DNA of 64,000 nucleotides, taken from the NCBI GenBank assembly GCA_002869065.1, contig PKTR01000002.1:992001-1056000 (forward strand). The letters run 5' to 3'. A program made the translations under genes and the position numbers. How positions within the stretch are numbered: the stretch's first letter is position 1; each line of letters begins with the position of its first letter. The stretch is from Hyphomicrobiales bacterium. Its GTDB lineage: Bacteria; Pseudomonadota; Alphaproteobacteria; Rhizobiales; Rhodobiaceae. The notes beneath the pieces are model-generated. The model made no database searches and was not told the origin of the DNA. It saw only the letters and a program-made list of their open reading frames with translations. Positions 2,021-43,200 of the stretch are shown one piece after another.

Positions 2021-2503
2021 GGCGGTGTCCTCCTCGGATTTGCTCCGGTGATAGCCGCTGCGGCGCCATTGGGAAAGCCGCGATGGGACTTCGTGCCTGT
2101 TGTGCGGTGGCAACAGGATGTTCACGATCGCTTCAACGTGGCCCGTTTCCGTTTTCCTCGGCGGGCCGGCTCGGCTATAAGGTCCCTGCATCGGGCGCTC
2201 GGCCCGGATCATTTTTGGCGCCGCAACACAGGGGGAGCCGATGAAAATCCGTCTTGGATGTTTTTCTCCGCGTATCCCACGCATGCGAGCTGCCTGACCG
2301 CGAATTTTCTTCGCAAAATCGCATTCGGCATCCCCATTTCCGGCATTCGGCGCTGATTTAGCGCCCGCCGATCCGTATTCCGGCCCTGATACGGGCCTTT
2401 GTTCCGGTTCACACCTCCAACGCACGCTCCGGCCGGGGCGAGGAACGCGTTTTGCCTGTTTCACTGGCCTGGGTCGTGAACCGCCGTTCGCTTGGAGCAT
2501 GTC
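2021..2503. other. Intergenic region between divergent hemF and the ABC exporters
   Basis: This 483-base gap must hold the promoters of hemF (leftward) and of the ABC exporter pair (rightward). I found no convincing RNA fold or operator. One 18-codon frame at 2241-2297 on the + strand has a strong GGGGGAG ribosome site and an Arg-rich peptide. It could be a leader peptide but there is no other support for it. Confidence 0.5.
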
Positions 2504-26154: not shown

Positions 26155-27174
26155 CTATTCCAGTTCGGGAAAGAACGCCGAAGGGGAAAGGCCGATCCTG
26201 TCGATCGTGCGCGAGCCGGCTTCGACCGCGATGGTCCGCGGGCCGGAGAGCCCCGGAAAGCGCTCGCCTTCGATGCTGCGCAGGGCGAGTTTCAAACCCA
26301 GCCGCCCCTGCGCGATCGGATCGTCGAACGGGACCATCTCGACCTGGCCGCGTTTCAACCCGCGCAGGACCGAGTGGCTGATATAGGTCGCCAGCAATCT
26401 GGGTGCGCGCGTGTCGTTGCCATGGCGGCGGAGCAGTGCCATCGCACCCTCCACGGCCGGCGCGCTGCCGATCAGATAGTCGGCGTCGGGGTATTCGGCG
26501 AGCGCCCGCTCGACTTGTCGCAATTGTTCGCGCAGGCCCGTATCGGCGCGGTAGGTTTCGACGATGTTGAGGGATGAGTTCTTCAGCCCTTCGGCAAGTC
26601 CGGAATCGAGAATCGGCCCCCAGCCGCTCTCCGTGGGACCGGTGACGAGAACGGCGCGCACCGGTTCGCTGCCTTTGGGATGACGGGAGCTGAGGAACGC
26701 GCCGACGGCCAAGCCCATCTTGCGCCAGTCGACGCCGACCCAGCCGGCGAGTCCCGGCGCATCGAGCGCGTTGACGAGGGCAAGTACCGGAACATGCTTT
26801 TCGGTTTCCACGACCGCCTGGATGAGGCGCGCGTCGTCGGCCGATACGGCTCCGAGAAGGATTGCCTGTGCGCCCTCGGCGCGGCAGATGTCGAGGAGTT
26901 CGATCTGGCGCTCGAGCGAATGATAACCGCCGGATTCATAGGTCAGCAGTTCAGCGCCGGTTTCTTCAGCGGCGGTGTGCAGCCCGAACCCGACGCTCAG
27001 CCAGTACTCGTCCTTGAAATGGGGGACGATGACACAGATCCGCGCCGCCGCCGGCGCGCCCGTGTCCTGAGCGGCAACCGGCGACATGGGCATGAGAAAC
27101 GCGGCGACCGCGCAGATCGCGAGGATGCGGGCGTAGGCGAAAAAGCCGGACGCGCGGCGTGCGCGTTTCGGCAA
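26155..27174 (-). CDS. torT: TorT-like periplasmic TMAO-sensing protein
   Basis: TorT is a periplasmic type-1 binding-protein fold that senses trimethylamine N-oxide and activates the TorS kinase. Family features include IVPHFKDEYWLSVGFG, then LLTYESGGYHSLERQI, and WVGVDWRKMG. The start is uncertain. The frame stays open to 27288 with an ATG at 27237. However, the region upstream of about 27170 is the reverse of a decayed torS 5' end, so the TTG at 27174 is preferred: it gives a compact signal peptide (PKRARR, then a hydrophobic run, cleavage near VAAQD). The gene converges on the ABC operon. torS and torR downstream on the map support the role. Confidence 0.82.
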   Translation of the reverse strand: MPKRARRASGFFAYARILAICAVAAFLMPMSPVAAQDTGAPAAARICVIVPHFKDEYWLSVGFGLHTAAEETGAELLTYESGGYHSLERQIELLDICRAEGAQAILLGAVSADDARLIQAVVETEKHVPVLALVNALDAPGLAGWVGVDWRKMGLAVGAFLSSRHPKGSEPVRAVLVTGPTESGWGPILDSGLAEGLKNSSLNIVETYRADTGLREQLRQVERALAEYPDADYLIGSAPAVEGAMALLRRHGNDTRAPRLLATYISHSVLRGLKRGQVEMVPFDDPIAQGRLGLKLALRSIEGERFPGLSGPRTIAVEAGSRTIDRIGLSPSAFFPELE

Positions 27175-27290
27175 GCAGTTGCGCAGGGTTTTCGCCTTGA
27201 TCACGGTCCTCACCGTCCTGGTGGACGCGGTGGCCATCGGCTCGATCCGCTGTCCGACAGAGAACCACAGAGGGTCGGTCCGAGACAACC
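27100..27290. repeat. torT/torS junction direct repeat, copy A
   Basis: This stretch matches 30007-30197 in the same orientation at a constant offset of 2907 bases, with an estimated 75-80% identity. It covers the torT signal-peptide codons and, on the + strand, a decayed start of torS. Copies A and B bracket the TcuA-TcuB fusion gene. Confidence 0.8.
27167..27290 (+). pseudogene. Remnant of the torS 5' end
   Basis: Reading TTC GGC AAG CAG from 27167 gives [19 protein letters not shown] and then DAVAIGS...TENHR. This closely follows the real torS N-terminus ([31 protein letters not shown]). The start codon and the codons after about position 45 are lost, so it is a dead fragment antisense to the torT 5' region. 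It shows where torS originally began. Confidence 0.8.
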
Positions 27291-27455
27291 GTCCGGCAGA
27301 TGTAAAACGGCTGCGTTCGATGTCGCAACAGGCATGAGGCGGTGAGTGCGTCCGGCGTTTGCCGCGGTGCGACCGTCGGCGCAGGGCTGTGGTGGTGCAC
27401 GCGATAGCGCGACTGCGCTATGAAGGGCCGGTGAATTCCAAACGAATGCGGGCAC

Positions 27456-30014
27456 ATGGGTTTGAGCACAGGCGTTCTGGTGATCGGCGGCGGCTTCGCC
27501 GGCCTTTGCGCTGCAATCGAGGCGCGGCTGGCTGGGGCTTCGGTCGTCCTGCTCGACGCCGCGCCGTTTCATATGCGGGGCGGCAATGCGCGCCATTCCC
27601 GCAACATCCGGCTTGCCCATGATGGCGAAACGCCGTGGCAGCGCACGCAGTATCCGGTCACCGAGTTTGCCGCCGATCTCATACGCGTCGGCGCGCCCGA
27701 TCCGGTGCTTTCGAAGCTTGTCGCGGATGAATCGACGGTGCTCGGAAGCTGGCTTGCCGCGCAGGGCGTGGCTTTCGAGCCATGGAGCGACGGCAATCTC
27801 CCGTGGTCGCCACGCACCGCGTTTTTCCGTGGCGGCGGGCAGGCGCTCGTCAACGTGCTCTATCGGCGGGCGGAACGGCTTGGGGTCGATATCCGCCATG
27901 GCTGGCGGGTTGAAGCGCTCGACCCCGCACTCCTTGTTGCCGAAAACGCCGGCCCCCTGCGGATTGCGGCAGTGACGGCGGAGGGAGCCGAGACCATCGA
28001 CACGGCAGCGCTGGTGCTCGCCTGCGGCGGCTACGGCGCCGACCGGTCGGCGCTGGCCGGCCATCTGGGGCCCGGCGCGCGCGGTTTCGCCAATCGCGGG
28101 ACACCGTTCCAGCGCGGCGAACCGCTGTTGTGGTTGCTCGCCAATGGGGCGGCGCCGGCTGGGCGGGCGGGCGACGGGCACCTCGTTGCGGTCGACGCGC
28201 GTGCACCGATGGATGATGCGGGGATCGTCAGCCGGATCGACGGCATGCATCTGGGGATCGTGGTCGATGTCCACGGGCGGCGGTTCTGCGACGAGGGCGC
28301 TGTCGTCGGGCAGACGCGTCATTCTCATCTTGGCCACATACTTGGCGAGCGGGAGGACCCGCGCGCCTGGCTGGTGCTCGGTGCCGAAGTGGCCAATACT
28401 TTGCCGGCAATGCTCTACCCGCCAATCACGGGGGAAAGCCCTGAAATACTGGCGGAACGCTGCGGTATCGATCCGGCAGGGCTCGCCGAAACCCTGGCGG
28501 AACTCGAGACTTACCTTGCCGGCGGTCCGGCGCCGGCAGTTCCGCGCAGCCGGTCCGCCGATGCGCCGCTGTCGCTGCAGGCGCCCTATGCCGCGATCCC
28601 GTTGCAGCCCGGCCTTGGCTTCACCCGTTTTGGGGTTGCCGTCGATGGCATGGCCCGCGTTCGTCTGACGGGAGGGGGTGTCGCGCCGGGTCTTTTCGCG
28701 TCGGGAGCGGCAATGTTCGGCGCTGTGTTGGGCGAGGGCTATCTTTCCGGCGGGGCGCTGACGATCGGCGGTGTCTTTGGCCGCATTGCCGGGCGTAATG
28801 CCGCCGCGCTGGCCGGGGACGCATTCGTTGGCTCCGGCGGGACTTTATGCCAACCGAGGCTGGCGTCCGGCGCCGTGCCGGACAACCCGCCCGCCGATCC
28901 GGTCGCCGAAGCGCGGCGCGCGCTGAACATCTGCAACACGTGCGGGTTCTGCACTGGCCTTTGCGACGTGTTCCCGGCCGCCGAGCTGCGCACCGCGCTG
29001 CGCGACGGAGACCTGCACCATCTGGCGCATCTGTGTCACGACTGCCGGTCCTGCCACGACGATTGCCAGTACGCACCGCCGCATGCCTTCGCGGTCAATC
29101 TCCCCGCTGCGTTGGCCGGGATGCGGCTCGAACAGTATCGCGGCGGGGTGCTGGCGCGCGGATCGGGGACCACCTGGCTTGCCGCGCTCTATGCGCTCTG
29201 CCTGTTTGGTGTTCCGCTCGCGGTCCTGCTGATGGTGCCATTGCAGACGGTGTTGTCCGCCCACACCGGACCGGGCGGTTTCTTTGCCGTCATTCCGCAC
29301 AGGGTGATGGCGGTCGGCGCCGGGCTCGCCTTTGGTCTTGCGGCTCTCGTTCTCGCCGTCCGCATCGGGCGGTTCTGGCGGAGCGGAGCCGGGCCTGATG
29401 CCCGCTATTCGTTGCGAAGCTGGGCGAAAGCGCTGGCGGATGTCCTGACGCTGCGCAATCTCGGTGGCGGCGGACCCGGCTGCGAAACCCGCGACGGTCC
29501 GACGGGACCTCTCCGTCGCATCGCTCATCACCTCACCGCCTACGGCTTCGGCCTGACCTTTCTCGCAACCCTTGCCGGTTCCGTGCAGCACTATCTGTTC
29601 GGCCAGATCGCGCCCTATCCGTTGCTCAGCCCGCCCGTCGTATTGGGTAATCTTGGCGGCGTTGCAATGCTCATCGGTCTCGCGGGACTCGAATGGTACC
29701 GGCTGCGTGCCGACCGGCGTCCGGCGGCGCGGCGCATGGAAGCCGCCGACCGGATTACGCGGGCAAGTCTCGCGGTGGTCGCGCTTAGCGGGCTCGTTCT
29801 TCTGGCATTCCGGGAGACGTCCGCGATGGGGCTTCTGCTGGCGCTCCACCTCGGCAGCGTGCTCGGGCTGGTCGTGACCCTTCCCTTCTCCAAACTCTCG
29901 CATGGGGCCTATCGTGCCGCCGCGCTTCTGCGCAATGCGGGCGAACGGGGGGCGATCGCACGAAGGATGCCGCTTCGGCCGGGGCCGGGGGCGGCTGGAA
30001 AAGACACGCGGTGA
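27456..30014 (+). CDS. TcuA-TcuB fusion (CobZ-like): FAD dehydrogenase, 2x[4Fe-4S], membrane cytochrome b-type domain
   Basis: This 852-residue fusion has three parts. Residues 1-~455 form a TcuA-type flavoprotein of the fumarate reductase/succinate dehydrogenase class (GGGFAGLCAA at about 11-20, GGNARHSRN, ACGGYGAD). Residues ~490-540 carry two four-cysteine sets (Cys493/496/499/503 and Cys527/530/533/537). From about 570 there are several membrane helices with histidines, as in TcuB. Separate TcuA and TcuB oxidise tricarballylate; a similar fusion in Rhodobacter, CobZ, makes precorrin-3B. No cobalamin gene or tcuC is nearby, so neither role is proven. Its stop lies at the edge of the downstream direct repeat. 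The ATG at 27456 has no strong ribosome site. Confidence 0.82.
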   Translation: MGLSTGVLVIGGGFAGLCAAIEARLAGASVVLLDAAPFHMRGGNARHSRNIRLAHDGETPWQRTQYPVTEFAADLIRVGAPDPVLSKLVADESTVLGSWLAAQGVAFEPWSDGNLPWSPRTAFFRGGGQALVNVLYRRAERLGVDIRHGWRVEALDPALLVAENAGPLRIAAVTAEGAETIDTAALVLACGGYGADRSALAGHLGPGARGFANRGTPFQRGEPLLWLLANGAAPAGRAGDGHLVAVDARAPMDDAGIVSRIDGMHLGIVVDVHGRRFCDEGAVVGQTRHSHLGHILGEREDPRAWLVLGAEVANTLPAMLYPPITGESPEILAERCGIDPAGLAETLAELETYLAGGPAPAVPRSRSADAPLSLQAPYAAIPLQPGLGFTRFGVAVDGMARVRLTGGGVAPGLFASGAAMFGAVLGEGYLSGGALTIGGVFGRIAGRNAAALAGDAFVGSGGTLCQPRLASGAVPDNPPADPVAEARRALNICNTCGFCTGLCDVFPAAELRTALRDGDLHHLAHLCHDCRSCHDDCQYAPPHAFAVNLPAALAGMRLEQYRGGVLARGSGTTWLAALYALCLFGVPLAVLLMVPLQTVLSAHTGPGGFFAVIPHRVMAVGAGLAFGLAALVLAVRIGRFWRSGAGPDARYSLRSWAKALADVLTLRNLGGGGPGCETRDGPTGPLRRIAHHLTAYGFGLTFLATLAGSVQHYLFGQIAPYPLLSPPVVLGNLGGVAMLIGLAGLEWYRLRADRRPAARRMEAADRITRASLAVVALSGLVLLAFRETSAMGLLLALHLGSVLGLVVTLPFSKLSHGAYRAAALLRNAGERGAIARRMPLRPGPGAAGKDTR

Positions 30015-30197
30015 CAGCGCAGATTGCGCGCCGCCGCGCGTGCGCGTAAGAACCGGATATGCGACGCGCGGGTTTCGACAAGCAGTTACGCAGGGTTTTC
30101 GCCTTTATCACGGTTCTCACCGTCCTCGTCGCTGCGGTGGCGATCGGCTCCATCTGGTATCTGACGGAAAACCACAGGGCGCTGGTCCAGGAGAACC
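30007..30197. repeat. torT/torS junction direct repeat, copy B
   Basis: This is the partner of 27100-27290. Here the torS side is the functional start (ATG at 30059), while the torT side (antisense, 30007-30075) is a remnant that still encodes a torT-like signal region on the minus strand. The TcuA-TcuB stop codon (30012-30014) falls within its first bases. Confidence 0.8.
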
Positions 30198-32875
30198 TTC
30201 CCGCGGCTGCCCTGGCGCGCGAGATCCAGGCCGACAGCGCCTATGTCGCCAGCCTTGGAACGTCCTTTACGGAGGTCGGCGATCCGGCGGATCTCGCTCT
30301 CCTCAAGAATGCCCTCTTGAACCGCGTCGAGGCGCTGGGACGTTCGGTCAACGACCTCGTCGCGCGGGCGCCGAAGCTGCAGCGCTCGACGCCGCTGGCG
30401 CTTTCAAAGGTCGAGGCGACCGTCATGAGCCAGTATGAGGCGGCGCTTGCCCGTCTCGAGACGCGTGAGGTGATCCGCCGGCGCCTGCGCGAAACCGTCA
30501 CGCGGCTCGGCGAGCTGGAAGACATCCTCACCCAGCAAACCGATACGGCGCGGGTTCAGATCACCGCCGCCATTGCCGATCTCTACGACCAGAATGGCGA
30601 CGACATCGCGCCGCGCCTCGATGATCTCGCCGATCTGAACTTCTTTACCTACGACCGGCTTTATGAACTGGGCCGGGCGATCGAAAGGCTGCGCGCGACG
30701 CTGCTCACGGCCGACACCCTGCAGACGCTGGATGCGCTGGCCGCCGCCCGGCGAACCGTCGTCGAGGAAATCGCCAATGCGCGCGGCCGTATCGAGTATC
30801 TGCCCTCGACCCGCGCCCGCAACCGGGTCACGATCCTGCTCGAAGGCATTTCCTCCGAGACCGATCCCGACGGTATCCTGACTGCACAGGCGGGGTATCT
30901 CGCGACATCGAAGACGCTCGGGCAAGCGCTCAAGCGCATGCAGGGGCAGACGCGGACGCTCGTGGCGTTTTCGGACAGCCTGTTCGACCGGATGCACGCC
31001 GAAGCCCTTGCCAGCCAGGCCTGGACCGAGCGGCTGGCGCGCTGGATCACGCTTGGTATGGCCGGCTTCCTGCTGGTCGCGATTGCCGCCGCCGGCCTTG
31101 CCTGGGCCAGTGTCAGCCGGCGCACGCTCGACCGTCTGGCCAACGTCAAGACCCATATCACCGCGCTGGCTCTCGGCGACTATGAACGGGCCATCCCGGA
31201 AACCGGCAGCGACGAGATCGGGCGGATGGAGCGTGCGCTGCATGTTCTGCGCTTGCGGGCGGCCGAGGCCAAGCGTCTGCGCGACGAGCTTGAGACCGCG
31301 GTCACCCAGCGAACCCGTGAAGTGGTGACGGAAATGCACGCGCATGACCGGGCGCGCGAGGAAGCCGAGGCCGCCAACCGCGCGAAGTCGGAATTCCTCG
31401 CCATGATGGGGCATGAAATCCGCACGCCGCTGAACGGTGTCGTCGGCATGCTGCGCCTGCTTGAGGCCGAAGCCTAAACGGACGAGCGGAAAAACCGCGC
31501 CACGATCGCCCGTCAGAGCGCGGAAAACCTGCTCGTCCTGTCGAATGACATCCTCGACTACGCGGCGACGCAGAGCCGTCGGCCGGTGCTGAGCCCGACC
31601 CATTTCGACGTGCGCGAACTGATGGCACAGCTGGCCGGCTATCTGCGTGCCAATGCCGCCGAAAAAGGCCTCGAGACGGCGATCGACATGGCGCCGGGCG
31701 TGCCGCCGGTGTTGCTCGGCGATGTCCAGAAGATCCGCCAGATCGTCGTCAATCTGTTGTCGAACGCCGTGAAATACACGCAGGCGGGCAGCGTTGCGAT
31801 CATTCTCGACCATGCGCCCGATCCCGCGAGCGGCGACCCGGTGATCAGTTTCACGATTGCCGATACCGGCATCGGCATTCCGCTGAACGACCACGCCCGC
31901 ATCTTCGATGCCTATGCGCGCGGTACGGGGCGGCCGGAAAACGCGATCGAGGGGCTCGGTCTCGGGCTCAGCATCAGCCGCCGACTGACCGAGGCGCTCG
32001 GCGGGTCGCTTTCGCTGGAAAGCGCGCCGGGCGAAGGCTCCCGGTTCACGCTCACCGTGCCGCTCAAGATCGGCGATCCCGAGCGGGTGTCCCATCAACG
32101 CGAGACCGCTGCGGTGGCATCCCTCGACAAGCGGGTTCTGGTGGTCGAGGACCAGGCGGTCAACCGCATGGTCGCGCGCGGTTATCTGGAGCGGCTCGGT
32201 TGTACGGCGGTCGAGGCGGAGACCGGAGCGGACGCGATCCGGCTTGCCCTCGACGGTGCGTTCGACCTCGTCCTGATGGATATCGATCTTCCCGACATGT
32301 CCGGCGGAGAGGCGGCGGGCCGGATCCGTGCCGAGCTCACTCATCCGCCGCGTATCGTCGCGCTGACGGCGCATCACATGGAGGATACTGCCGCGCGCCG
32401 GGCCGAACTCAACGTCGACCGCATCCTGCACAAGCCGCTATCGCCGCGCTCGCTTGCCGCGTTGCTCGGGACCGAGCCGGGTACTGCCTCTGAAAGCGAG
32501 CCGGGTGCCGATGCGATCCATGAGACGCTCGCAGCCGATGTCGCCGATATCGGCCGCGAAGAAACGGCGGCCATCGTCGACGCCTTTATCGAGGAGACGG
32601 AACGTGCGCTGGCGGCGATGCAGGCCGCATTCGCGTCGTCGGATCTGGACGGCATCGCGCGGCAGGCGCATCGGCTGAAGGGAGCTGCGTCGAATTTCGC
32701 CTTGTCGGACTTCTGCGCGGCGCTCGGCGAGATCGAAGCCGCGGCGCGCAATGGCAGCGATGTGTCCGGTGCTCTCGCCGGCATCGATGACAAGGCGGCC
32801 GCGGTCGTTGCCCGGCTGAGGGATGCTGCCCGTGGCCTGGATCTTCAGCTGTCGGAGAGTTCGGCGAGCATGTAG
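30059..32875 (+). pseudogene. torS: TorS hybrid sensor histidine kinase with an internal in-frame stop
   Basis: The 938-codon frame encodes an N-terminal helix (about 13-35), a long helical periplasmic sensor, and a second helix (about 325-347). A HAMP region, the H-box [12 protein letters not shown] (His452), HATPase motifs (NLLSNAVKYT, DTGIGI, GLGLGL), a receiver (Asp741 in LMDIDLPDMSG) and an Hpt domain (His871 in AHRLKGAASN) follow. Codon 473 is TAA (31475-31477), in the same frame on both sides, with the conserved ARQSAENLLVL continuing directly after it. As written the kinase is split between its phospho-acceptor and ATP-binding domains and should be inactive. A single base change (for example CAA to TAA) would explain it. 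A GTG at 31586 could start the second half. It converges on and overlaps torR by 31 bases. Confidence 0.88.
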
Positions 32876-33558
32876 CCCTCGCCGTGGATCGTGATGATCC
32901 ATTCCGGGCGCGAGGGATCGGGTTCGATCTTCTTGCGCAACCGGCCGACCAGAACGTCGATGGTCCGGTTGTCGGGCGCCCAGCGCTGGTTCTGGATCAT
33001 GTCGAGCAGCCGGTCGCGGCTCAGGATCACGCCGGGGTGGCCGGCGAATGCGTCGAGCAGCTCGAATTCGGCGCGGGTCAGGGCTTCGATGTCGCCGTCA
33101 TCGTTGACGAGGCGGCGGCGTGCCCGGTCGAGCTTCCAGCGTCCGAGCTGCACGGCCGGCGGTGCCGCGCTTTCGGTTTCCATCGCGCGCAAAGCCGCGA
33201 CCCGCGCGGCCAGGTTCTTGATGCGGGCGAAAAGCTCGCGCTTGTCGAACGGCTTCGTCACGTAGTCGTCGGCGCCGAGCTCGAGCCCGACAATGCGGTC
33301 GATCTGATCGGTCCGGCTGGTAAGAAGGATGATGCCGACATCGGAGCGGGCGCGCTGCTCGCGGGTGATGGTGAGCCCGTCCTTGCCTTCCAGATTGATG
33401 TCGACCAGCAGCACGTCGGCCGGATCGCGGGCGATGATCTCTTCCATCACCGTGGCGTCGGCGGCCTCGCTGACGCGGTACATCTGCTGCTTGAGCTGGG
33501 CGGCCAGGCGGCGGCGCGTGACGGGATCGTCTTCGATGATCACGATGTGATGGCTCAT
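32845..33558 (-). CDS. torR: OmpR-family response regulator TorR
   Basis: This 237-residue regulator has an N-terminal receiver (IIEDDPVT acidic pocket, LLVDINLEGKDG with the phosphorylated Asp, LTSRTDQID, TKPFDKREL). Its C-terminal winged helix-turn-helix contains LTRAEFELLDAF, RWAPDNRTIDVLVGRLRKKI and IHGEGYML. In the Tor system TorR activates torCAD when phosphorylated by TorS. It diverges from torA across a 141-base gap that contains short direct repeats suited to TorR binding, and it overlaps the torS 3' end by 31 bases. The ATG at 33556-33558 is the natural start. Confidence 0.92.
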   Translation of the reverse strand: MSHHIVIIEDDPVTRRRLAAQLKQQMYRVSEAADATVMEEIIARDPADVLLVDINLEGKDGLTITREQRARSDVGIILLTSRTDQIDRIVGLELGADDYVTKPFDKRELFARIKNLAARVAALRAMETESAAPPAVQLGRWKLDRARRRLVNDDGDIEALTRAEFELLDAFAGHPGVILSRDRLLDMIQNQRWAPDNRTIDVLVGRLRKKIEPDPSRPEWIITIHGEGYMLAELSDS

Positions 33559-33584: not shown

Positions 33585-33606
33585 GTTTACATTCTTTTAC
33601 ATCTTC
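33585..33606. promoter_or_regulatory. Candidate TorR-binding direct repeats
   Basis: TTTACATTCT (33586-33595) is followed immediately by TTTACATCTT (33596-33605), a ten-base direct repeat, exactly one helical turn. A looser related TACACAT lies at about 33616-33623. They lie between divergent torR and torA. Enteric tor boxes are also ten-base direct repeats (consensus near CTGTTCATAT), but the sequence here differs. Confidence 0.5.
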
Positions 33607-33699: not shown

Positions 33700-36366
33700 A
33701 TGACATTCGCTCATACGACACGTCGCGGCTTTCTGATCGGTACCGGGGCGCTTGGCCTGTCGAGCCTGTGGAACACCACGGCGCTCGCGTCCATCGACCC
33801 GAACTCGTTCCAGGACCGCATCTTTCACGCCACCCATTTCGGCCCGTTCGAGGCCGTCGTGCGCGATGGCAAGATCGTCAACATCTCGCCGATGATCGAG
33901 CTCGATTCGCGCCCGACCGAGATGCTGTCATTGGGTATCCTCGACCGCACCAACGACAAGACGCGGGTCGACTATCCGATGGTGCGCAAGTCCTACCTCG
34001 AGGGCTGGCAGAGCGGCGACACCAAGCGCGAGCTGCGCGGCAAGGAAGAGTGGGTCCGTGTCGATTGGGACACCGCCCTCAGCCTGACGGCGAAAGCCAT
34101 CCTCGATACGATCGAGAAGCACGGAAACGAGGGCATCTTCAGCTCGTCCTATGGCGGCTGGGCGAATGCCGGCGTGTTCCGTCCGAACGTGATGCAGGGC
34201 CGGTTCTTCAACCTGATTGGCGGCTGCTCGGTCACTGCCGGCGACTGGTCGGCCGGTGCAAGCCAGGTCGCGCTGCCGCACATCATCGGCGACATGGAGG
34301 TCTACTCGGCCCAGACTGCATGGGAGGTCATCCGCGACCACACCGAGGTGTTCGTTCTCGTCGGCGCCGATCCGATCAAGAACAACCGCGTCGAATATCG
34401 CGTCGCCGACCACGGCATGTATGCCCATTGGGAAGAGATCCGCGATGCCGGCGTGAAGTTTGTCTCGATCAATCCGCAGCGTACAGCGACCGACGAGTTC
34501 CTCGATGCCGAGTGGGTGAAGATCGTTCCCAATACCGACGTCGCCCTGTTCCTGGCGATGGCCTATCACGTGCTCGATGCCGGTCTCGACGACAAGGACT
34601 ACATCGCCAAATACACGACGGGCGCCGACAAGTGGATCGCCTATGTGAAGGGCGAGACGGACGGCACGCCGAAGACCCCGGCCTGGGCGGCGGCGATGAC
34701 CGGCATGGACGAGGCCAAGATCAAGGAACTGGCCGAACTGTTCGCCAAGTCGAAGACCCAAATCGCCGGTGCCTGGTCGCTGCAGCGTGCCCATCACGGC
34801 GAGATGACCCACTGGGCCATCGTCAATTTCGCCGCGCTTACCGGTAAGATCGGTGTTCCGGGCGCAGGCGTCGGTTTCTCGTGGCATTACGGCAATGGCG
34901 GCATGCCGCAGGGCGGCAACGCGACGCCGGTCGGCCTCAGCCAGGGCAAGAACTTCGTCGACAAGATCGCGCCGGCAAGCCGCATCACCGAGATGCTGGA
35001 AAATCCGGGCGGCGAGTTCCGCTATAACGGCATCGCACGGGAGTATCCGGACGTCTACATGATCGTCAACGCCGGCAACAACTTCATGTCGCATCAGCAG
35101 GACACCAACCGGTTGATCAAGGCGCTCGCCAAGGTCGACGCGATCGTCAGCGTCGATGTGTGGTGGACGGCGGCGACGCGCTGGGCCGACATCGTCCTGC
35201 CGGCGTCCTCGACGCTCGAACGCAACGACATCACTTCAGGCGGTACGTATTCGAATGACCGCGTCTACGCGATGAAGCGGGTCGTCGAGCCGATGGGCGA
35301 GGCCAAGAGCGATTACGAGATCTTCGAGGCGCTGGCGGAAAAGATGGGGTTCTGGGCGAAGTTCACCGACTCGCTCGAATTCATGGACCACGTCAAGGCG
35401 GCCTATTCGAAGTCCGGCGCGGCGAAGGAGACGCCGTTCGAGGAGTTCTGGGAGAAGGGTTATGCCCGCATGCCGATGCCGGCCGCGGCCCGCAAATGGG
35501 TGCGCCACGGGGCGTTCTACGAGGACCCCGAAGCGAACCCGCTGCACACCGTCACCGGCAAGATCGAGATGTTCTGCAGTACCATCGCGGACATGAATAT
35601 CGAGGATTGCCCGGGCATGCCGGTGTGGCAGGAACCGGCCGAATTCCTCGGCAACGCCAAGGACGGCCAGCTCCACATGGTCAGCCCGCACCCGTGGTAC
35701 CGGCTGCACAGCCAGATGGACCAGTCGGCGAATCTGCGCGCCCTCTACAAGGTGCAGGGTCGCGAGCCGGTGCGGATCAACGCCGAAGATGCCGCTGCCC
35801 GCGGTATCGCCGACGGCGATCTGGTCGAGCTCTACAACGAACGCGGCACGGTGATTGCCGGTGCGGTCGTGTCCGACGAGATCATGCCGGGCGTGGTGTC
35901 GCTCTACGAGGGCTGCTGGCCGTCGCTCGACAGCAAGGGGCGGGACAATTCCGGCCTCGCCAACTTCCTGACCTCGGCGCGGCCGGCCTCCGGGCTGTCG
36001 AATGCCACGACGGCGAACACCGTGCTGGTCTCGATGCGCAAATGCGAGGATGCGGAAGGGCCGAACCTGGCCTACGACAAGCCCGCCATCGTCGAGATGG
36101 AGCTGGCCGCGATCGATGAAGAGGTGCTCGGGCTCGGCCGGGTCGAGGGGATCTTCGAGCACATCATGGCCGACATGACGCCGGAGGAAAAGCTCTTCTA
36201 CGAACGCTGCACGGTGTGTCATGCGCCGCGCGAGCCGAGCCACTACACCCAGCTGCAGTGGAAAGCCGTGCTGCCATCGATGTTCGAACGAGCCGGGCTG
36301 GACGATGCCGAACGGGCAACGGTCGAAACGTTCCTGATGGCCCGCGCCGCCGACGCGAAGAAGTAA
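33700..36366 (+). CDS. torA: TMAO/DMSO-type molybdoreductase TorA with fused C-terminal cytochrome c domain
   Basis: This 888-residue periplasmic molybdenum enzyme is predicted to reduce trimethylamine N-oxide or a related oxide. A twin-arginine signal (TTRRGFLIG, residues 7-15) directs folded export. The catalytic domain has the family stretches VRVDWDTAL, GGWANAGVF and GDWSAGASQ, where Ser184 is the likely molybdenum ligand, and many MGD-binding segments. Residues ~822-888 form an extra domain with a heme c site (CTVCH, Cys837/Cys840/His841) resembling the last heme domain of TorC/TorY. E. coli TorA (848 residues) lacks it. No torC or torD is in the window. The ATG at 33700 follows AAGGAG. 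The frame runs open far upstream, but that part has no similarity. Confidence 0.92.
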   Translation: MTFAHTTRRGFLIGTGALGLSSLWNTTALASIDPNSFQDRIFHATHFGPFEAVVRDGKIVNISPMIELDSRPTEMLSLGILDRTNDKTRVDYPMVRKSYLEGWQSGDTKRELRGKEEWVRVDWDTALSLTAKAILDTIEKHGNEGIFSSSYGGWANAGVFRPNVMQGRFFNLIGGCSVTAGDWSAGASQVALPHIIGDMEVYSAQTAWEVIRDHTEVFVLVGADPIKNNRVEYRVADHGMYAHWEEIRDAGVKFVSINPQRTATDEFLDAEWVKIVPNTDVALFLAMAYHVLDAGLDDKDYIAKYTTGADKWIAYVKGETDGTPKTPAWAAAMTGMDEAKIKELAELFAKSKTQIAGAWSLQRAHHGEMTHWAIVNFAALTGKIGVPGAGVGFSWHYGNGGMPQGGNATPVGLSQGKNFVDKIAPASRITEMLENPGGEFRYNGIAREYPDVYMIVNAGNNFMSHQQDTNRLIKALAKVDAIVSVDVWWTAATRWADIVLPASSTLERNDITSGGTYSNDRVYAMKRVVEPMGEAKSDYEIFEALAEKMGFWAKFTDSLEFMDHVKAAYSKSGAAKETPFEEFWEKGYARMPMPAAARKWVRHGAFYEDPEANPLHTVTGKIEMFCSTIADMNIEDCPGMPVWQEPAEFLGNAKDGQLHMVSPHPWYRLHSQMDQSANLRALYKVQGREPVRINAEDAAARGIADGDLVELYNERGTVIAGAVVSDEIMPGVVSLYEGCWPSLDSKGRDNSGLANFLTSARPASGLSNATTANTVLVSMRKCEDAEGPNLAYDKPAIVEMELAAIDEEVLGLGRVEGIFEHIMADMTPEEKLFYERCTVCHAPREPSHYTQLQWKAVLPSMFERAGLDDAERATVETFLMARAADAKK

Positions 36367-36843: not shown

Positions 36844-39800
36844 ATGGCGACCAATGGCACTTCAGGCGCAGACACGCTGAACGGCACTTCAGGCGCAGAC
36901 ACGATTTCAGGCTTGTCGGGGAACGACACGATCAAAGGGTACGCGGGCGCAGACTCTCTGGAGGGGAACCAGGGCGACGATATCATTGCGGGCGGCGACG
37001 GCAATGACACCATTCGGGGCGGGGATGACAATGATTCAATCGCCGGCGGCAACGGCAACGATACAATTTTCGGTGGCGACGGCAACGACACCGTGGCGGG
37101 AAACGTCGGGGATGACGAAATTTCCGGAGGCGCCGGGCAAGATACCCTTCGAGGCTGGGACGGCAACGATTGGGTCGACGGTGATGGTGGCGCCGATCAA
37201 GTCTATGGCGACGCCGGTGACGACACCCTTATCGGCGGGGCTGGCAACGACACCTTATATGGTGGAAACGGGATCGACTGGGCCTACTACACTGATGCCT
37301 CGGGCGGCGTAACAGTGAACCTTGAGGACGGCACCGCTACCGGACAAGGCTCGGACTCTCTTTTCGGTATTGAAAACGTCAAGGGTGGTGCCGGCGACGA
37401 CGAGATCACCGGCACGTCCGCTGCCAATCATCTGTTGGGAAATGATGGCGACGACTCGCTGAACGGCGGGGGCGGCAACGATTCCATCCGTGGTGGAACC
37501 GGCAATGATCTTGTCGTTGGTGGTGGTGGAAACGACAGCATCTATGGTGACGCTGATAACGACACTCTTATCGGCGGAGCTGGCGACGACTTCATCTATG
37601 GTGGCAACGGTACGGACTGGGCGTACTACACTGACGCCTCGGGTGGCGTATTGGTTGACCTTGAGGAGGGCACCGCCGCCGGACAAGGCTCGGACTCTCT
37701 TTTCGGTATTGAAAACGTCAAGGGCGGCGCCGGCGATGACGAAATCATCGGCTCTTCAGACGCCAATCGTCTGGTGGGAGATAACGGCGACGATAAACTT
37801 AGCGGCGGCGATGGCAATGACACGCTGAGTGGTGGTGCCGGTAACGACACGCTGTACGGCAATGTTCACCACGACACGCTGTATGGTGGCGGCGGCGGCG
37901 ATTTGCTGAACGGTGGCGTCGGCAACGATAGCGTCAATGGTGACGGTGGCGACGATACTCTCATTGGCGGCACCGGAGACGACACCCTGGATGGCGGTGA
38001 CGGCGTCGACTGGGCGTATTACAGCGCTGCATCAAGTGGTGTGACAGTGAACCTCGTCGAGGGTACCGCGGCTGGTATCGGCTCGGACAGTCTTGTCAGT
38101 ATCGAAAACATCAAGGGCGGTGCGAGCGATGATGAAATCACAGGCTCTGCCGCCGCCAATTATCTGGTGGGCGACGACGGCAACGATACGCTGTCTGGCA
38201 ATGGCGGCAACGACACGCTGAGCGGCGGCGCTGGTTCCGACTCGCTGAAAGGCGGCGGTGACGACGATTTTCTGAGTGGCCAGGGAGACGACGACTGGCT
38301 CTTCGGCGGAGATGGCGACGATACCGTGTCCGGTGATGCCGGCAACGACACCCTTCATGGTGGCAACGGCAATGACACGCTGGGCGGTGGCGCGGACGAT
38401 GATTTCGTCAACGGGGGTGACGGAAATGATGTCATCTCAGGCGATTCGGGCGTCGATACACTTATGGGTGGCGACGGAAACGACACCATGGATGGTGGCG
38501 ACGGTGTCGACTGGGCATCTTACACCAATGCTACGAGCGGGGTGACGGTCAATCTTGAATTGGGGACTGCCACCGGACATGGCTCGGACGTCCTTTCCAA
38601 TATCGAGAACGTCAAGGGTAGTGACAGCAACGATGCCATCACCGGTTCTTCCGATGCCAACTATCTGGAGGGCAGAGGTGGCAGCGATACGCTTATCGGC
38701 GGCGGCGGCAACGACACGCTGAGCGGTGGTGATGGTGTCGACACGGCAGTCTTTACCGGAGACTGGGCGGATTACGACGTCACGGTCAACGGCGACAGCT
38801 CCTACACGCTGGTCGACACTCGCGGCGGCTCGCCGGACGGAACGACGACAGTGCTCGCCGATGTCGAGAACTTCCAGTTCAGCGATGGCACGGTGGCGCG
38901 GGCGGATGTCCCGAATGATGCGCCGAGCGATATCACACTGTCGAACGACACTATTCTGGAGAATGCGCAGCCGGGCGACGTTGTCGGCACGGTTGCCGTC
39001 AGCGATGCCGACAGTGGCATCGCATCCGAGGGGCACAGCTATCAGATTACCGGGGGAACCGGTGCTGGCCTCTTTGACATCGATGGCTCGACCGGTGCGA
39101 TTACGGTCGCCGGCGCGCTCGACTACGAGACGACCAATACCTATGACCTGAGCGTTGACGTGACCGACGCCCATGGTGCGACCTATACCGAGACGGTGAC
39201 GATCTCGGTGGGCGATGTCAACGAAGCGCCGGACAGCCTTGGCATCGCGTTTAATGCCGATGTCGTTACGAATAACGGTCTCGACGAGAACACAGCTCTC
39301 GGCACGGTGGTCGGCACGGCGACGGGCAGCGACCCGGATGCGGGGGATGTTCTGAGCTACAGTCTGACCGACGATGCCGGTGGCGCGTTTGCCATCGACG
39401 GCACGACGGGCGTGATTACGGTGGCCGGCGCGCTCAATCATGAGGCGACGGAAACCCTCGACCTGACGGTTCGCGTGACGGACACGGGCGGGCTGACGCG
39501 CGACGAGACGGTCACGCTCGAAATCCGGGACATCGACGAGGTGCCGGACAGCTTGGCTGTCTCGGTCAATGCGATCGATGAAAACTCGGAAGTCGGCACG
39601 GTTGTCGGCACGGCGACGGGCAGCGACCCGGATGCGGGCGATGTGCTGAGCTACAGCCTGACCGACGATGCGAATGGCGCGTTTGCCATCGACAGCGTGA
39701 CGGGCGTGATTACGGTCGCCGATCCGCTGCAGCTTGACTACGAGACGGCGCAAACCCTCGACATCACGGTTCGCGTGACGGACGCCGAAGGTCTCTATAT

Positions 39801-42800
39801 CGAGGCCAATCAGGCCGTGACCCTCAACAATGTCATACCCGAAACGATCACGGGATCCTCTGGCGACGACAGCATTACAGGCGCTGACGGCAACGACACG
39901 CTCATCGGCGGAGGTGGCAACGACACGCTGAGCGGTGGTGACGGAGTCGACACGGCGGTCTTCACCGGGACCTGGGCGGATTACGACGTCACGGTCAATG
40001 GCGACAGCTCGTATTTGCTGGTCGACACGCGCGGTGGTTCGCCGGATGGAACGACGACGGTTCTCGCCAATGTCGAAAACTTCCAGTTCAGCGACGGCAC
40101 GGTGGCGCGGGTGGACGTCCCGAATGATGTGCCGAGCGATATCACACTGTCGAACAACACCATTCTGGAGAATGCGCAGCCGGGCGACGTCGTCGGCACG
40201 GTTGCCGTCAGCGACGCCGACAGTGCCATTGCGTCCGAGACGCATAGCTTCCAGTTCACCGAGAATACGGACTCCGGTCCCTTTGCCATCGATGGTGCGA
40301 CCGGTGTGATCACGGTCGCCGGCGCACTCGACTACGAGACGACCAATACCTACGACCTGAGCGTTGACGTAACCGACGCCCACGGTGCGACCTATACCGA
40401 GACGGTGACAATCTCGGTGGGGGATGTCAACGAAGCGGGAGCCTATCCAGCTGAACTCAGTCTCTCCAGCCTTGATGGCACCAACGGCTTTCAAATCAAC
40501 GGCGAGGCTGCAGAAGACTATAGCGGGTATTCCGTCTCCAGTGCCGGTGATATCAACGGCGATGGCTTCGATGATGTGATCATCGGTGCTTTCCGTGCGG
40601 ATCCGAACGGAAGCGAGTCAGGCGCGTCGTATGTGGTATTCGGTAAGGCGACCGGTTATTCCGCCAGTATTGAACTCTCAAACCTTGACGGCACCGATGG
40701 TTTCCAGATCAACGGAGAGGCCGTGGGTGACCGCAGTGGCTGGTCCGTTTCCAACGCCTGCGATGTCAATGGCGACGGTTATGATGATCTGATCATCGGC
40801 GCTTATTTCGCAGATCCGAATGGGAACACCTCCGGCGCGTCGTATGTGGTATTCGGTAAGGCGACCGGTTATTCCGCCAGTATTGAACTCTCAAACCTTG
40901 ACGGCACCGATGGTTTCCAGATCAACGGTGAGGCCGCGAGTGACCTGAATGGCGATTCAGTTTCCAGCGCTGGCGATATCAATGGTGACGGTTTCGATGA
41001 TCTGATCGTTGGTGCCTTCGGTGCCGATCCGAATGGGGATGCCTCTGGTGCATCCTATGTGGTTTTCGGCAAAGCATCGGGTTTCGCAGCCAATCTGGAA
41101 CTGTCCAGTCTTGACGGGGCCAACGGATTCCAGATCAACGGTGAGACAGTAGACGATAACAGCGGGCATTCCGTCTCTAGTGCTGGCGATATCAACGGTG
41201 ACGGCTTCGATGATCTGATTGTCGGCGCGCCCTATGCCGATCCGAACGGAGTTGCTTCTGGTGCATCCTATGTGGTTTTCGGCAAAGCATCGGGTTTCGC
41301 AGCCAATCTGGAACTGTCCAGTCTTGACGGTACCAACGGATTCCAGATCAACGGTGGGGCTGCGGACGATCGAAGCGGATGGTCGGTCTCCAGCGCCGGA
41401 GATATCAACGGGGACGGCTTCGATGATCTTATTCTTGGTGCCGACTTCGCCGATCCAAATGGGGATCTCTCCGGTGCGTCCTATGTGGTGTTCGGTCAGG
41501 CTTCGGGTTTCGCAGCCAGTCTCGAACTGTCCAGCCTTGATGGCACCAACGGCTTCCAGATCAACGGAGAGGCAACGGGCGACCAGAGCGGTCATTCCGT
41601 CTCCAGTGCCGGTGATGTTGATGGCGATGGCTACGATGATCTGATCATCGGTTCTTTCGGTGCCGATCCGAATGGGGATCTCTCCGGTGCATCCTATGTG
41701 GTTTTCGGCAAAGCATCGGGTTTCACTGCCAATCTGGAACTCTCCAGCCTCGGCGGTATCAACGGGTTCCAGATCAACGGGGAGGCAGCAGGTGACCAAA
41801 GCGGTGTTTCTGTCTCCGGTGCCGGCGATGTCAACGGCGATGGCTTTGATGACTTGATCATTGGCGCTTCCCACGCCGATCCAAATGGCGACGGCTCCGG
41901 CGCGTCCTATGTGGTGTTCGGCGGGCCCGGTGCGGTTGATCCCATAATTGGCGGTGACACAGATGACTCACTCATCGGCGGTGAGGGCGACGACTATATC
42001 GATGGCGGCGATGGCAGAGACGAAATACTCGGCAATGGCGGTGATGACACGTTAATTGGCGGCTCCGGGAAGGATACGATTTACGGCGGAACGGGTGCTG
42101 ATAGCATTGATGGCGAGGAGCACGGCGATGAAGTTTATGGGGAAGAAGGCGACGACACCATCACTGGTGGTCATGGATACGACACGCTTGACGGTGGCGC
42201 CGGCAACGACTTCATCGACGGAGGAGAATTCGACGATAGTGTTCTAGGTGGTGACGGCAACGATACCCTTTGGGGCGGCGATGGCAATGACACCGTCAAC
42301 GGCGGTACTGGAAATGACGTTCTCTATGGCAACGCTGGTGATGATTGGCTGAATGCCGCTGGCGGCAACGATACCATCTATCACTTCGTCGGCGATGGCG
42401 ATGATCAAGTGGACGGTCGCAATGACGACGACTTGCTCATCGTTGCTAACCACACGCTTTACGCCGATGGAAGCACCGCCGCAAACGCTTCATCGCAGAC
42501 CTTTGCGGTAGAGGGTTTCATCAACGGCGAGATTTACATCGACTATGACGGCTTGGATGCCCCCGATGTTTCCGTGCTCAAAAACACGGAAGTTATCGAA
42601 ATCGTCTTGGGCGATGGTGGTGACGCGGTCGAACTCTCTGGTGATTTCTCACTGACGGACTTAACGGGAGGGATCACGGTCAACGGTGGCAACGGTGACG
42701 ATCTTCTGATCGTCAATCTTGACGCTGCGGGTCATGTTTTTGCTGGGGGCGCAGGCGAAGATACGCTCGATTATTCAAAACAAACAGCTGCCGTCACCGC

Positions 42801-43200
42801 CGATCTTGCGGCCGGGACGGGAACCGGCATGGCCTTGATCATCAATGTCGAGAACCTGACGGGCGGCGCCGGCGACGATACGCTGTCCGGTGACAATGGC
42901 GACAATCGGCTTGCCGGCGGGCTCGGCGACGACAGCCTCACCGGCGTGCTCGGGTCGGACAGCTTCGTCTATGCCGATGGCGCATTCGGCCACGATACCC
43001 TGACCGATTTCCAGACGGGCGCCGCCTCGGACGACGTGATCGAGTTCAGCACCGATGTCTTTGCGGACTACGCTGCCGTGCTTGCGGCCGCGACGGACGA
43101 TGGCACGGATACGACCATCACGTTCGACGCCGACAACACGATCGTTCTTGAAGACGTTCTGGTTGCCGATCTCGATAGCGACGACTTCGTCTTCGTGTAA
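36844..43200 (+). CDS. Giant RTX / cadherin-like / FG-GAP repeat protein, predicted type I secreted
   Basis: This 2118-residue acidic protein has no N-terminal signal. Residues 1-~635 are RTX nonapeptides (GGxGxDxLx), interrupted four times by a WA-Y/S-YTDAS-type module ending in IENVKGG. Residues ~690-1195 are cadherin-like domains (DENxxxGTVVGT, GVITVAG, DVNEA) with an embedded RTX island. Residues ~1205-1695 hold seven 71-residue FG-GAP/integrin-alpha-like repeats, each with a calcium loop such as DINGDGFDDLIIG. Then more RTX, a linker, final RTX, and a C-terminal end (ADLDSDDFVFV) typical of type I secretion signals. It is likely a calcium-stabilised surface adhesin or matrix protein. No HlyB/HlyD-type exporter lies nearby. 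It is a lone gene with lower GC and repetitive DNA. Confidence 0.92.
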   Translation: MATNGTSGADTLNGTSGADTISGLSGNDTIKGYAGADSLEGNQGDDIIAGGDGNDTIRGGDDNDSIAGGNGNDTIFGGDGNDTVAGNVGDDEISGGAGQDTLRGWDGNDWVDGDGGADQVYGDAGDDTLIGGAGNDTLYGGNGIDWAYYTDASGGVTVNLEDGTATGQGSDSLFGIENVKGGAGDDEITGTSAANHLLGNDGDDSLNGGGGNDSIRGGTGNDLVVGGGGNDSIYGDADNDTLIGGAGDDFIYGGNGTDWAYYTDASGGVLVDLEEGTAAGQGSDSLFGIENVKGGAGDDEIIGSSDANRLVGDNGDDKLSGGDGNDTLSGGAGNDTLYGNVHHDTLYGGGGGDLLNGGVGNDSVNGDGGDDTLIGGTGDDTLDGGDGVDWAYYSAASSGVTVNLVEGTAAGIGSDSLVSIENIKGGASDDEITGSAAANYLVGDDGNDTLSGNGGNDTLSGGAGSDSLKGGGDDDFLSGQGDDDWLFGGDGDDTVSGDAGNDTLHGGNGNDTLGGGADDDFVNGGDGNDVISGDSGVDTLMGGDGNDTMDGGDGVDWASYTNATSGVTVNLELGTATGHGSDVLSNIENVKGSDSNDAITGSSDANYLEGRGGSDTLIGGGGNDTLSGGDGVDTAVFTGDWADYDVTVNGDSSYTLVDTRGGSPDGTTTVLADVENFQFSDGTVARADVPNDAPSDITLSNDTILENAQPGDVVGTVAVSDADSGIASEGHSYQITGGTGAGLFDIDGSTGAITVAGALDYETTNTYDLSVDVTDAHGATYTETVTISVGDVNEAPDSLGIAFNADVVTNNGLDENTALGTVVGTATGSDPDAGDVLSYSLTDDAGGAFAIDGTTGVITVAGALNHEATETLDLTVRVTDTGGLTRDETVTLEIRDIDEVPDSLAVSVNAIDENSEVGTVVGTATGSDPDAGDVLSYSLTDDANGAFAIDSVTGVITVADPLQLDYETAQTLDITVRVTDAEGLYIEANQAVTLNNVIPETITGSSGDDSITGADGNDTLIGGGGNDTLSGGDGVDTAVFTGTWADYDVTVNGDSSYLLVDTRGGSPDGTTTVLANVENFQFSDGTVARVDVPNDVPSDITLSNNTILENAQPGDVVGTVAVSDADSAIASETHSFQFTENTDSGPFAIDGATGVITVAGALDYETTNTYDLSVDVTDAHGATYTETVTISVGDVNEAGAYPAELSLSSLDGTNGFQINGEAAEDYSGYSVSSAGDINGDGFDDVIIGAFRADPNGSESGASYVVFGKATGYSASIELSNLDGTDGFQINGEAVGDRSGWSVSNACDVNGDGYDDLIIGAYFADPNGNTSGASYVVFGKATGYSASIELSNLDGTDGFQINGEAASDLNGDSVSSAGDINGDGFDDLIVGAFGADPNGDASGASYVVFGKASGFAANLELSSLDGANGFQINGETVDDNSGHSVSSAGDINGDGFDDLIVGAPYADPNGVASGASYVVFGKASGFAANLELSSLDGTNGFQINGGAADDRSGWSVSSAGDINGDGFDDLILGADFADPNGDLSGASYVVFGQASGFAASLELSSLDGTNGFQINGEATGDQSGHSVSSAGDVDGDGYDDLIIGSFGADPNGDLSGASYVVFGKASGFTANLELSSLGGINGFQINGEAAGDQSGVSVSGAGDVNGDGFDDLIIGASHADPNGDGSGASYVVFGGPGAVDPIIGGDTDDSLIGGEGDDYIDGGDGRDEILGNGGDDTLIGGSGKDTIYGGTGADSIDGEEHGDEVYGEEGDDTITGGHGYDTLDGGAGNDFIDGGEFDDSVLGGDGNDTLWGGDGNDTVNGGTGNDVLYGNAGDDWLNAAGGNDTIYHFVGDGDDQVDGRNDDDLLIVANHTLYADGSTAANASSQTFAVEGFINGEIYIDYDGLDAPDVSVLKNTEVIEIVLGDGGDAVELSGDFSLTDLTGGITVNGGNGDDLLIVNLDAAGHVFAGGAGEDTLDYSKQTAAVTADLAAGTGTGMALIINVENLTGGAGDDTLSGDNGDNRLAGGLGDDSLTGVLGSDSFVYADGAFGHDTLTDFQTGAASDDVIEFSTDVFADYAAVLAAATDDGTDTTITFDADNTIVLEDVLVADLDSDDFVFV
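38686..39228 (+). repeat. Intragenic duplication, copy 1
   Basis: This 543-base segment of the RTX gene, from an RTX motif through a VFTGDWADYDVTVNGD module to the end of a cadherin-like domain (GDVNEA), is repeated at 39895-40437 at an offset of exactly 1209 bases. The middle of the segment has diverged more than the ends. Confidence 0.9.
39895..40437 (+). repeat. Intragenic duplication, copy 2
   Basis: Second copy of 38686-39228. It includes the same VFTG-WADYDV module, the ILENAQPGDVVGT cadherin motif and DAHGATYTETVTISVGD, with scattered substitutions. Confidence 0.9.
40462..41930 (+). repeat. Seven tandem 213-bp FG-GAP repeats
   Basis: Units begin at 40462, 40675, 40888, 41101, 41314, 41527 and 41740, each exactly 213 bases (71 residues). 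Every unit reads S-LDGTNGFQING, SVSSAGDINGDG-DDLIIGA, ADPNG-SGASYVVFG. Some neighbouring units share long identical DNA stretches, which points to recent unit duplication or exchange. Confidence 0.93.

Follow-up and report, generated by a model that had tools for sequence, protein, structure and literature searches.

A conserved subfamily of TorA/DorA-type reductases with a predicted TorC-type heme module built into the same chain

The window analyzed here (the whole 64,000-nucleotide stretch of DNA, from a Hyphomicrobiales bacterium) encodes a molybdoenzyme in which, judged from its sequence, a TorA/DorA-type reductase has a TorC-type heme module built in. The enzyme gene, at 33700-36366, is intact in the window's copy, and the fused enzyme is a conserved subfamily rather than the local oddity the initial annotation took it for, being encoded on 58 named genome contigs and six plasmids. 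Our preferred reading, to which we assign a probability of about 0.6, is a TorA/DorA-like periplasmic N-/S-oxide reductase equipped with a heme of its own for electron entry, with soluble carriers replacing TorC. We hold the electron route at that value, and weigh rivals to it (a NapC-type donor, another oxidant, an oxidative direction), because of a thermodynamic caveat. Public annotation names the subfamily just "molybdopterin-dependent oxidoreductase," and its scores fall under the curated cut-offs. We found no description of the fusion in the open-access literature (subscription papers were outside the scope), which is not proof of novelty.

Domain organization of the fused enzyme

The gene and its parts are as follows.

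33700..36366, plus strand: fused TorA-type molybdoenzyme with a predicted C-terminal heme c domain, 888 amino acids
33700..33792, plus strand: predicted Tat signal peptide region (T-R8-R9-G-F-L), twin-Arg in 55/55 family members
33817..36090, plus strand: catalytic Mo-bisMGD region, residues about 40 to 797, from Pfam and NCBIfam matches
36091..36180, plus strand: linker from catalytic core to heme domain, of lower conservation
36181..36357, plus strand: TorC-type monoheme c domain, residues 828 to 886, from profile, alignment, and fold matches
36208..36222, plus strand: CTVCH heme-attachment motif (C837, C840, H841), read from the sequence and conserved in 55/55
36280..36282, plus strand: Met861, predicted distal (sixth) heme ligand, conserved in 55/55, from alignment with DHC

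We take ATG 33700 as the start codon. A Shine-Dalgarno-like AAGGAG lies upstream of it, and its residue is where the alignment starts for most alphaproteobacterial relatives; the longer reading frame from GTG 32884 overlaps torR and was rejected. The AlphaFold model of the whole protein has a mean pLDDT of 79. The catalytic domain is full length, running to about residue 797, and CTVCH follows it with Cys837, Cys840, and His841 exactly where the initial annotation had placed them. The start it gave for the feature, 35950, is still within the catalytic domain, and the heme domain proper occupies about 36181 to 36357.

Catalytic core

Pfam families Molybdopterin_N, Molybdopterin, and Molydop_binding cover residues 43 to 797, and NCBIfam bisC_fam spans residues 44 to 797 (model positions 1 to 769 of 772). 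The bisC_fam model TIGR00509 scores 862 bits, below its curated cut-off of 1018, and the TorA equivalog TIGR02164 scores 635 bits, below its cut-off of 1465. The best superpositions of the whole model were on MtsZ (Z 38.5), the DMSO reductase of Rhodobacter (37.8), and TorA of E. coli (37.6). In alignments, Ser184 (34249-34251) falls opposite the Mo-ligand serine of DorA and TorA and, like Trp154, Arg363, and His664, is present in 55/55 family members. By sequence and model, the core is a complete TorA/DorA/BisC-type architecture and fold. Based on the fold matches, Ser184, and the pocket residues, the enzyme is predicted by homology to be an N-/S-oxide reductase. We regard these assignments of structure by homology as strong, close to certain.

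Tyr151 of the subfamily is shared with DorA and absent from E. coli TorA, and all 55 members have one extra glycine, reading SYGGW rather than SYGW. Rhodobacter DorA/DorC and Haemophilus MtsZ provide the closest solved core structures, and DorA has the same Tyr and Trp pocket residues. DorA and MtsZ differ in having Mo-bisMGD as sole cofactor, a separate multiheme donor, and no C-terminal heme domain. Mo-bisMGD is the sole cofactor throughout the TorA/DorA/BisC group (PMC10609526), whereas the fused enzymes have a conserved C-terminal heme c motif and domain, with the heme itself predicted.

The C-terminal heme c domain

A resemblance of the tail to the last heme domain of TorC had been proposed from the sequence, and profile searches bear this out. 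Searched alone, the 88 C-terminal residues hit NCBIfam torC (TIGR02162), aligning to positions 326 to 382 of its 387 (E 6.9e-7), a match restricted to the fifth-heme domain of TorC. When a profile of 24 family tails was compared with a profile of 12 TorC/DorC tails, hhalign gave a probability of 98.8% and an E of 9e-17 over 58 columns. Both sets have a common C-x2-CH-x12-W-x6-M spacing, with Met at the Met861-equivalent position in 12/12 TorC/DorC tails. The AlphaFold model of the isolated tail is compact and helical (pLDDT 85). Profile, spacing, and predicted fold together make the tail a homologue of the TorC fifth-heme domain. Unlike that domain in pentaheme TorC, it is not attached to a NapC-type tetraheme membrane domain but is fused to TorA.

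The tail also resembles DHC. The last 88 residues match the DHC cytochrome family PF09626 at E 7.5e-4 (21.0 bits, below the cut-off of 22.2), and a single-sequence search matched the DHC structures 2fw5 and 2fwt (E about 5e-4). The DHC first-heme domain is the best PDB fold match of the tail model (2fwt, Z 8.1, rmsd 2.1 over 59 residues), with 3u99 second (Z 7.4); the Foldseek E is a weak 0.02. Because a PDB sequence search with the tail profile scored DHC weakly (E 0.04-0.05), the link to DHC rests on the single-sequence search and the fold match. In DHC, H51 is the sixth ligand of the first heme domain, and the last helix of the heme domain carries an aromatic-Leu signature (PMC2909971). Met861 aligns opposite the His of DHC's LPNHF, and F878-L879 is an aromatic-Leu pair in the tail's counterpart of the last helix. 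Since the invariant Met861 sits at the DHC sixth-ligand position, we infer that the tail heme is a His/Met heme c. DHC, from Rhodobacter and Shewanella, differs in its His sixth ligand at that position, its two hemes, and its partner SHP.

The twin-Arg, CXXCH (both Cys and His841), Trp854, and Met861 are kept in 55/55 aligned members. Mean pairwise identity is 0.70 in the heme domain and 0.70 in the catalytic core, against 0.50 in the linker (residues 782-825). Because CXXCH is found in every relative read to its C terminus and the heme domain is conserved like the core, a chance CXXCH is ruled out. Other terminal reductases have a fused electron-donor cytochrome c domain, for example, cNosZ of Epsilonproteobacteria and NirK-cytochrome c, but these are copper enzymes with unrelated catalytic folds.

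Distribution and phylogeny

Our scan of genome contigs found 58 loci, with the tail present in every copy read to its C terminus. The hosts are mostly Rhodobacterales and also include Kiloniella, Pseudovibrio, Cohaesibacter, Azospirillum, Thauera, Aromatoleum, Azoarcus, Zoogloea, Acidovorax, and Alcaligenaceae; plasmid records with fused torA include Leisingera, Paracoccus, and Photobacterium. The subfamily thus occurs in many marine and denitrifying bacteria. We surveyed how often TorA carries the tail in evenly sampled genomes and found the fused form in 5/385 of the class and 4/398 of the phylum, or about 1% of the Pseudomonadota species sampled, while 61 of the 398 phylum genomes have any TorA/DorA-like match at E 1e-100. 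Sampled relatives from the host's own order yielded no fusion, only unfused homologues of at most 43% identity.

In a tree built from core columns only, the 55 fused proteins group together with SH-aLRT 100, to the exclusion of E. coli TorA, DorA, and every unfused homologue; the tree came from a short search and contains some long branches. A single fusion, passed on afterward both vertically and horizontally, would fit this pattern. The fused TorA of a Saprospiraceae (Bacteroidota) metagenome-assembled genome is nested among the proteobacterial sequences, from either transfer or binning contamination.

Regulators and neighboring genes

The regulatory genes and candidate site of the window's locus are as follows.

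26155..27288, minus strand: torT, periplasmic TMAO-binding protein (NF008185, 290.9 bits, cut-off 200)
30059..32875, plus strand: torS, hybrid sensor kinase, with one in-frame TAA at 31475-31477
32845..33558, minus strand: torR, response regulator (NF008034, 264.5 bits, below the cut-off of 275)
33586..33601, plus strand: TTTACA-N4-TTTACA direct repeat ahead of torA, a candidate binding site for TorR, from repeat statistics

Across 61 loci, a TorS homologue occurs at 54, TorR at 52, and TorT at 50. The torTSR linkage of the canonical Tor system is therefore present, whereas its linked torC and torD are absent: torC was not found at any family locus, and neither was an own torD, the single TorD match (at L109) lying beside a second torA. 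The direct repeat occurs upstream of torA in 16/34 alphaproteobacterial regions, where shuffling gives an expectation of 0.003, and in 0/3357 control stretches. Given the decameric boxes of E. coli, it is a plausible candidate TorR site.

The E. coli TorA-TorC system (torCAD, torTSR) is alike in catalytic fold, Ser Mo ligand, Tat export, and torT/torS/torR regulation, and E. coli TorC ends in the fifth-heme domain homologous to the fused tail. It differs in that the heme domain is separate from TorA, which lacks Tyr151 and falls in another clade. Compared with torCAD, the fused system has neither the quinol-dehydrogenase half of TorC nor a torD at the locus.

In Rhodobacterales, the operon continues with molybdenum cofactor (Moco) genes for MoeA/Glp, DUF2478, MoaA, MoaD, a ThiF-like protein, and MoaE, of which MoaD, ThiF-like, and MoaE were named by sequence inspection only. 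At L064 (10744-12536) and similar Rhodobacterales loci, fused torA and these genes together come close to a self-contained Moco operon. DUF2478 is found at 17 loci, and its role may be connected with Moco.

Candidate electron donors

The initial annotation reported no torC nearby, and our whole-genome search of the 99%-complete host genome extended this, finding no full-length torC near the fused gene or elsewhere; a canonical TorC at another site in the host was accordingly rejected. The search returned four tetraheme NapC/NirT-type proteins and the fused tail. Among 24 fusion genomes, 6 encode a full or nearly full-length TorC and 18 are without a full-length one.

Carrier genes lie near fused torA at 6/61 loci. 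Pseudoazurin-like cupredoxins are encoded in the operon region at three of these (L124, L086, L063) and cytochrome c2 at two (L077 and L078, the L078 protein matching solved cytochrome c2 at E 2e-47), and at L099 a small cytochrome c gene is directly 3' of torA. Two donors had been suggested, a soluble cytochrome or the TcuB-like membrane domain encoded in the window. These operon contents from other lineages favor a soluble carrier, and the CobZ/TcuAB-like protein (27456-30014) was rejected as a dedicated donor, having no homologue at any relative's locus. Pseudoazurin as a universal partner is not supported: 1/24 genomes passed the curated cut-off and 12/24 had some match, with none in the host genome. 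Cytochrome c1 is present in 24/24 fusion genomes, but this is permissive and not discriminating, since it is nearly universal in these clades.

In the preferred reading, the Ccm system would attach the heme c (C837/C840/H841, M861) once the protein is in the periplasm, and the tethered heme would receive single electrons from cytochrome c2, a similar c-type cytochrome, or a pseudoazurin-like cupredoxin. The heme domain would then swing to the substrate funnel and reduce Mo, like the TorC C-terminal domain. The tether would substitute for both halves of TorC, the heme module being fused and the NapC-like quinol-oxidizing half dispensed with, and TorT/TorS/TorR would induce the enzyme, most likely with TMAO. 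The E. coli TorC C-terminal domain has been modeled as moving between an "out" position 35 Å and an "in" position 17 Å from Mo (PMC11727998); by analogy, the fused tail, on its variable linker, could swing in the same way. Transfer from TorC heme to TorA Mo has so far been modeled as a two-protein complex alone (PMC11727998). With both centers in one chain, the heme-to-Mo step would be directly measurable.

Thermodynamics tempers this route. The hosts are expected to use mainly ubiquinone, and cytochrome c2 and pseudoazurin are still more oxidizing than ubiquinone. TMAO/TMA lies at +130 mV (PMC6195509) and UQ at +90 mV, and ubiquinol-driven TMAO reduction via bc1 has been called unfavorable (PMC6195509). 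A chain that runs from ubiquinone through bc1 and high-potential carriers to TMAO is energetically marginal or uphill. Given these potentials, a bc1 route requires an oxidant stronger than TMAO, a carrier of low potential, or a pool that is highly reduced. Campylobacter jejuni TorA (Cj0264) and TorB (Cj0265) likewise use a TorC C-terminal-type heme module without TorC: TorB corresponds to the TorC C-terminal domain but is a protein in its own right, and its electrons are proposed to come from the Qcr (bc) complex, QcrABC (PMC6195509). The differences are that TorB is a separate soluble protein in a menaquinone-based chain, whereas here there is one polypeptide. The link between TorB and the fused tail runs only through the TorC C-terminal domain (PMC6195509).

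A further proposal, that the protein is a TorC- and TorD-independent one-chain oxide reductase or dehydrogenase whose electrons pass to or from the high-potential carriers serving the bc1 segment in the periplasm, is tentative, and we place it somewhat short of even odds. If it is true, either N-/S-oxide respiration in Alpha- and Betaproteobacteria would become electrogenic through coupling to a proton-pumping complex, or the substrate would be oxidized and cytochrome c fed.

Maturation

Known TorA/DorA enzymes require or benefit from TorD/DorD (PMC10609526). No TorD/NarJ-family protein was found in 5/24 fusion genomes, and of the four TorD-family proteins in the host genome, at least three lie beside other Mo enzymes by coordinate. 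By gene content, the fused family thus seems to do without a dedicated TorD in maturation, and it casts doubt on the rule that TorC and TorD are needed for TMAO respiration in these bacteria. The family is further predicted to combine Tat export with periplasmic heme attachment. That this poses an assembly problem was a valid point of the initial annotation, and the family would let one test how Tat exports a Mo-loaded protein that acquires heme c in its last domain outside.

Alternative donors and roles

The tethered heme could instead be fed by a non-electrogenic NapC/NirT tetraheme quinol dehydrogenase shared with denitrification, which would be thermodynamically easier than bc1. Four such proteins are encoded in the host, and at least one family member is found in 15/24 fusion genomes. 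However, 9/24 have none, including a complete chromosome (L076/G450), which means that dependence on the NapC/NirT/TorC family cannot be general for the fused enzyme. In addition, no such gene was found at the family loci, and at least three of the host's four proteins adjoin other systems (nap, a nir-type cluster, and a SoxF-like flavocytochrome gene). We therefore consider this donor unlikely, although it is the best placed of the alternatives. As a separate observation, a 622-aa NirT-type tetraheme cytochrome of the host genome (L002:217-2085), adjoining a nir-type gene, is joined to a large C-terminal region containing one or more additional CXXCH motifs.

The enzyme might also run in the oxidative direction (e.g., sulfide or amine to oxide), with electrons leaving via the heme to high-potential carriers. 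DMS dehydrogenase, which feeds cytochrome c2, is a parallel. With TMAO/TMA at the potential given above (PMC6195509), the cytochrome c2 and pseudoazurin-like genes near some copies suit electron export better. Nevertheless, the linked TorT/TorS/TorR (50-54/61 loci) normally induces reduction, and Ser184, Trp154, Arg363, and the DorA-shared Tyr151 are residues of N-/S-oxide reductases, making this direction improbable.

A mainly regulatory tail is a slimmer prospect still. In such a maturation checkpoint, the heme-free tail would act like E. coli apo-TorC, binding TorS and keeping the operon off, with electron transfer secondary. E. coli apo-TorC does bind the TorS periplasmic domain (PMC11727998), and TorS is kept with the fusion at 54/61 loci despite the loss of torC. 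Yet CXXCH, Trp, and the residue presumed to be the sixth ligand never vary, as for a redox domain, and a checkpoint would leave Mo reduction without TorC unexplained; both roles could coexist. Finally, a relic tail that binds no heme is barely credible: heme binding is so far predicted and the window's locus may be decaying, since its torS is interrupted, but both Cys, His841, Trp854, and Met861 persist in 55/55 members, at a conservation equal to that of the catalytic core.

The window's own locus

The torT product matches TorT of PDB 3o1h (E 1e-48). The in-frame TAA of torS falls inside the kinase core, just past the H-box, and the frame is otherwise open to 32875; it is either a nonsense change or an assembly error. 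Between torT and torS lies the CobZ-type gene (27456-30014), which encodes an 852-aa fusion of a TcuA-like flavoprotein and a TcuB-like Fe-S/heme membrane protein and scores above the curated cut-offs of TIGR02485 and TIGR02484. A 208-bp direct repeat of 77% identity links 27095-27302, beside torT, and 30002-30209, at the torS start. The CobZ-like gene looks like a local insertion, as it is absent at relatives' loci and adjoins this duplicated stretch; an insertion that duplicated the torT/torS boundary would leave such a repeat. Given the torS stop and the insertion with its repeat, control of the window's torA copy may be impaired.

Directly downstream of fused torA, 36844-43200 encodes a 2118-aa repeat-rich protein. 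By eye, its repeats resemble those of RTX, cadherin, and FG-GAP type, and it is probably an adhesin, either secreted or at the surface. Elsewhere in the window, two adjoining ABC exporter genes (2492-6215) have ATPase C-terminal halves almost identical in protein sequence, which suggests recent duplication or gene conversion.
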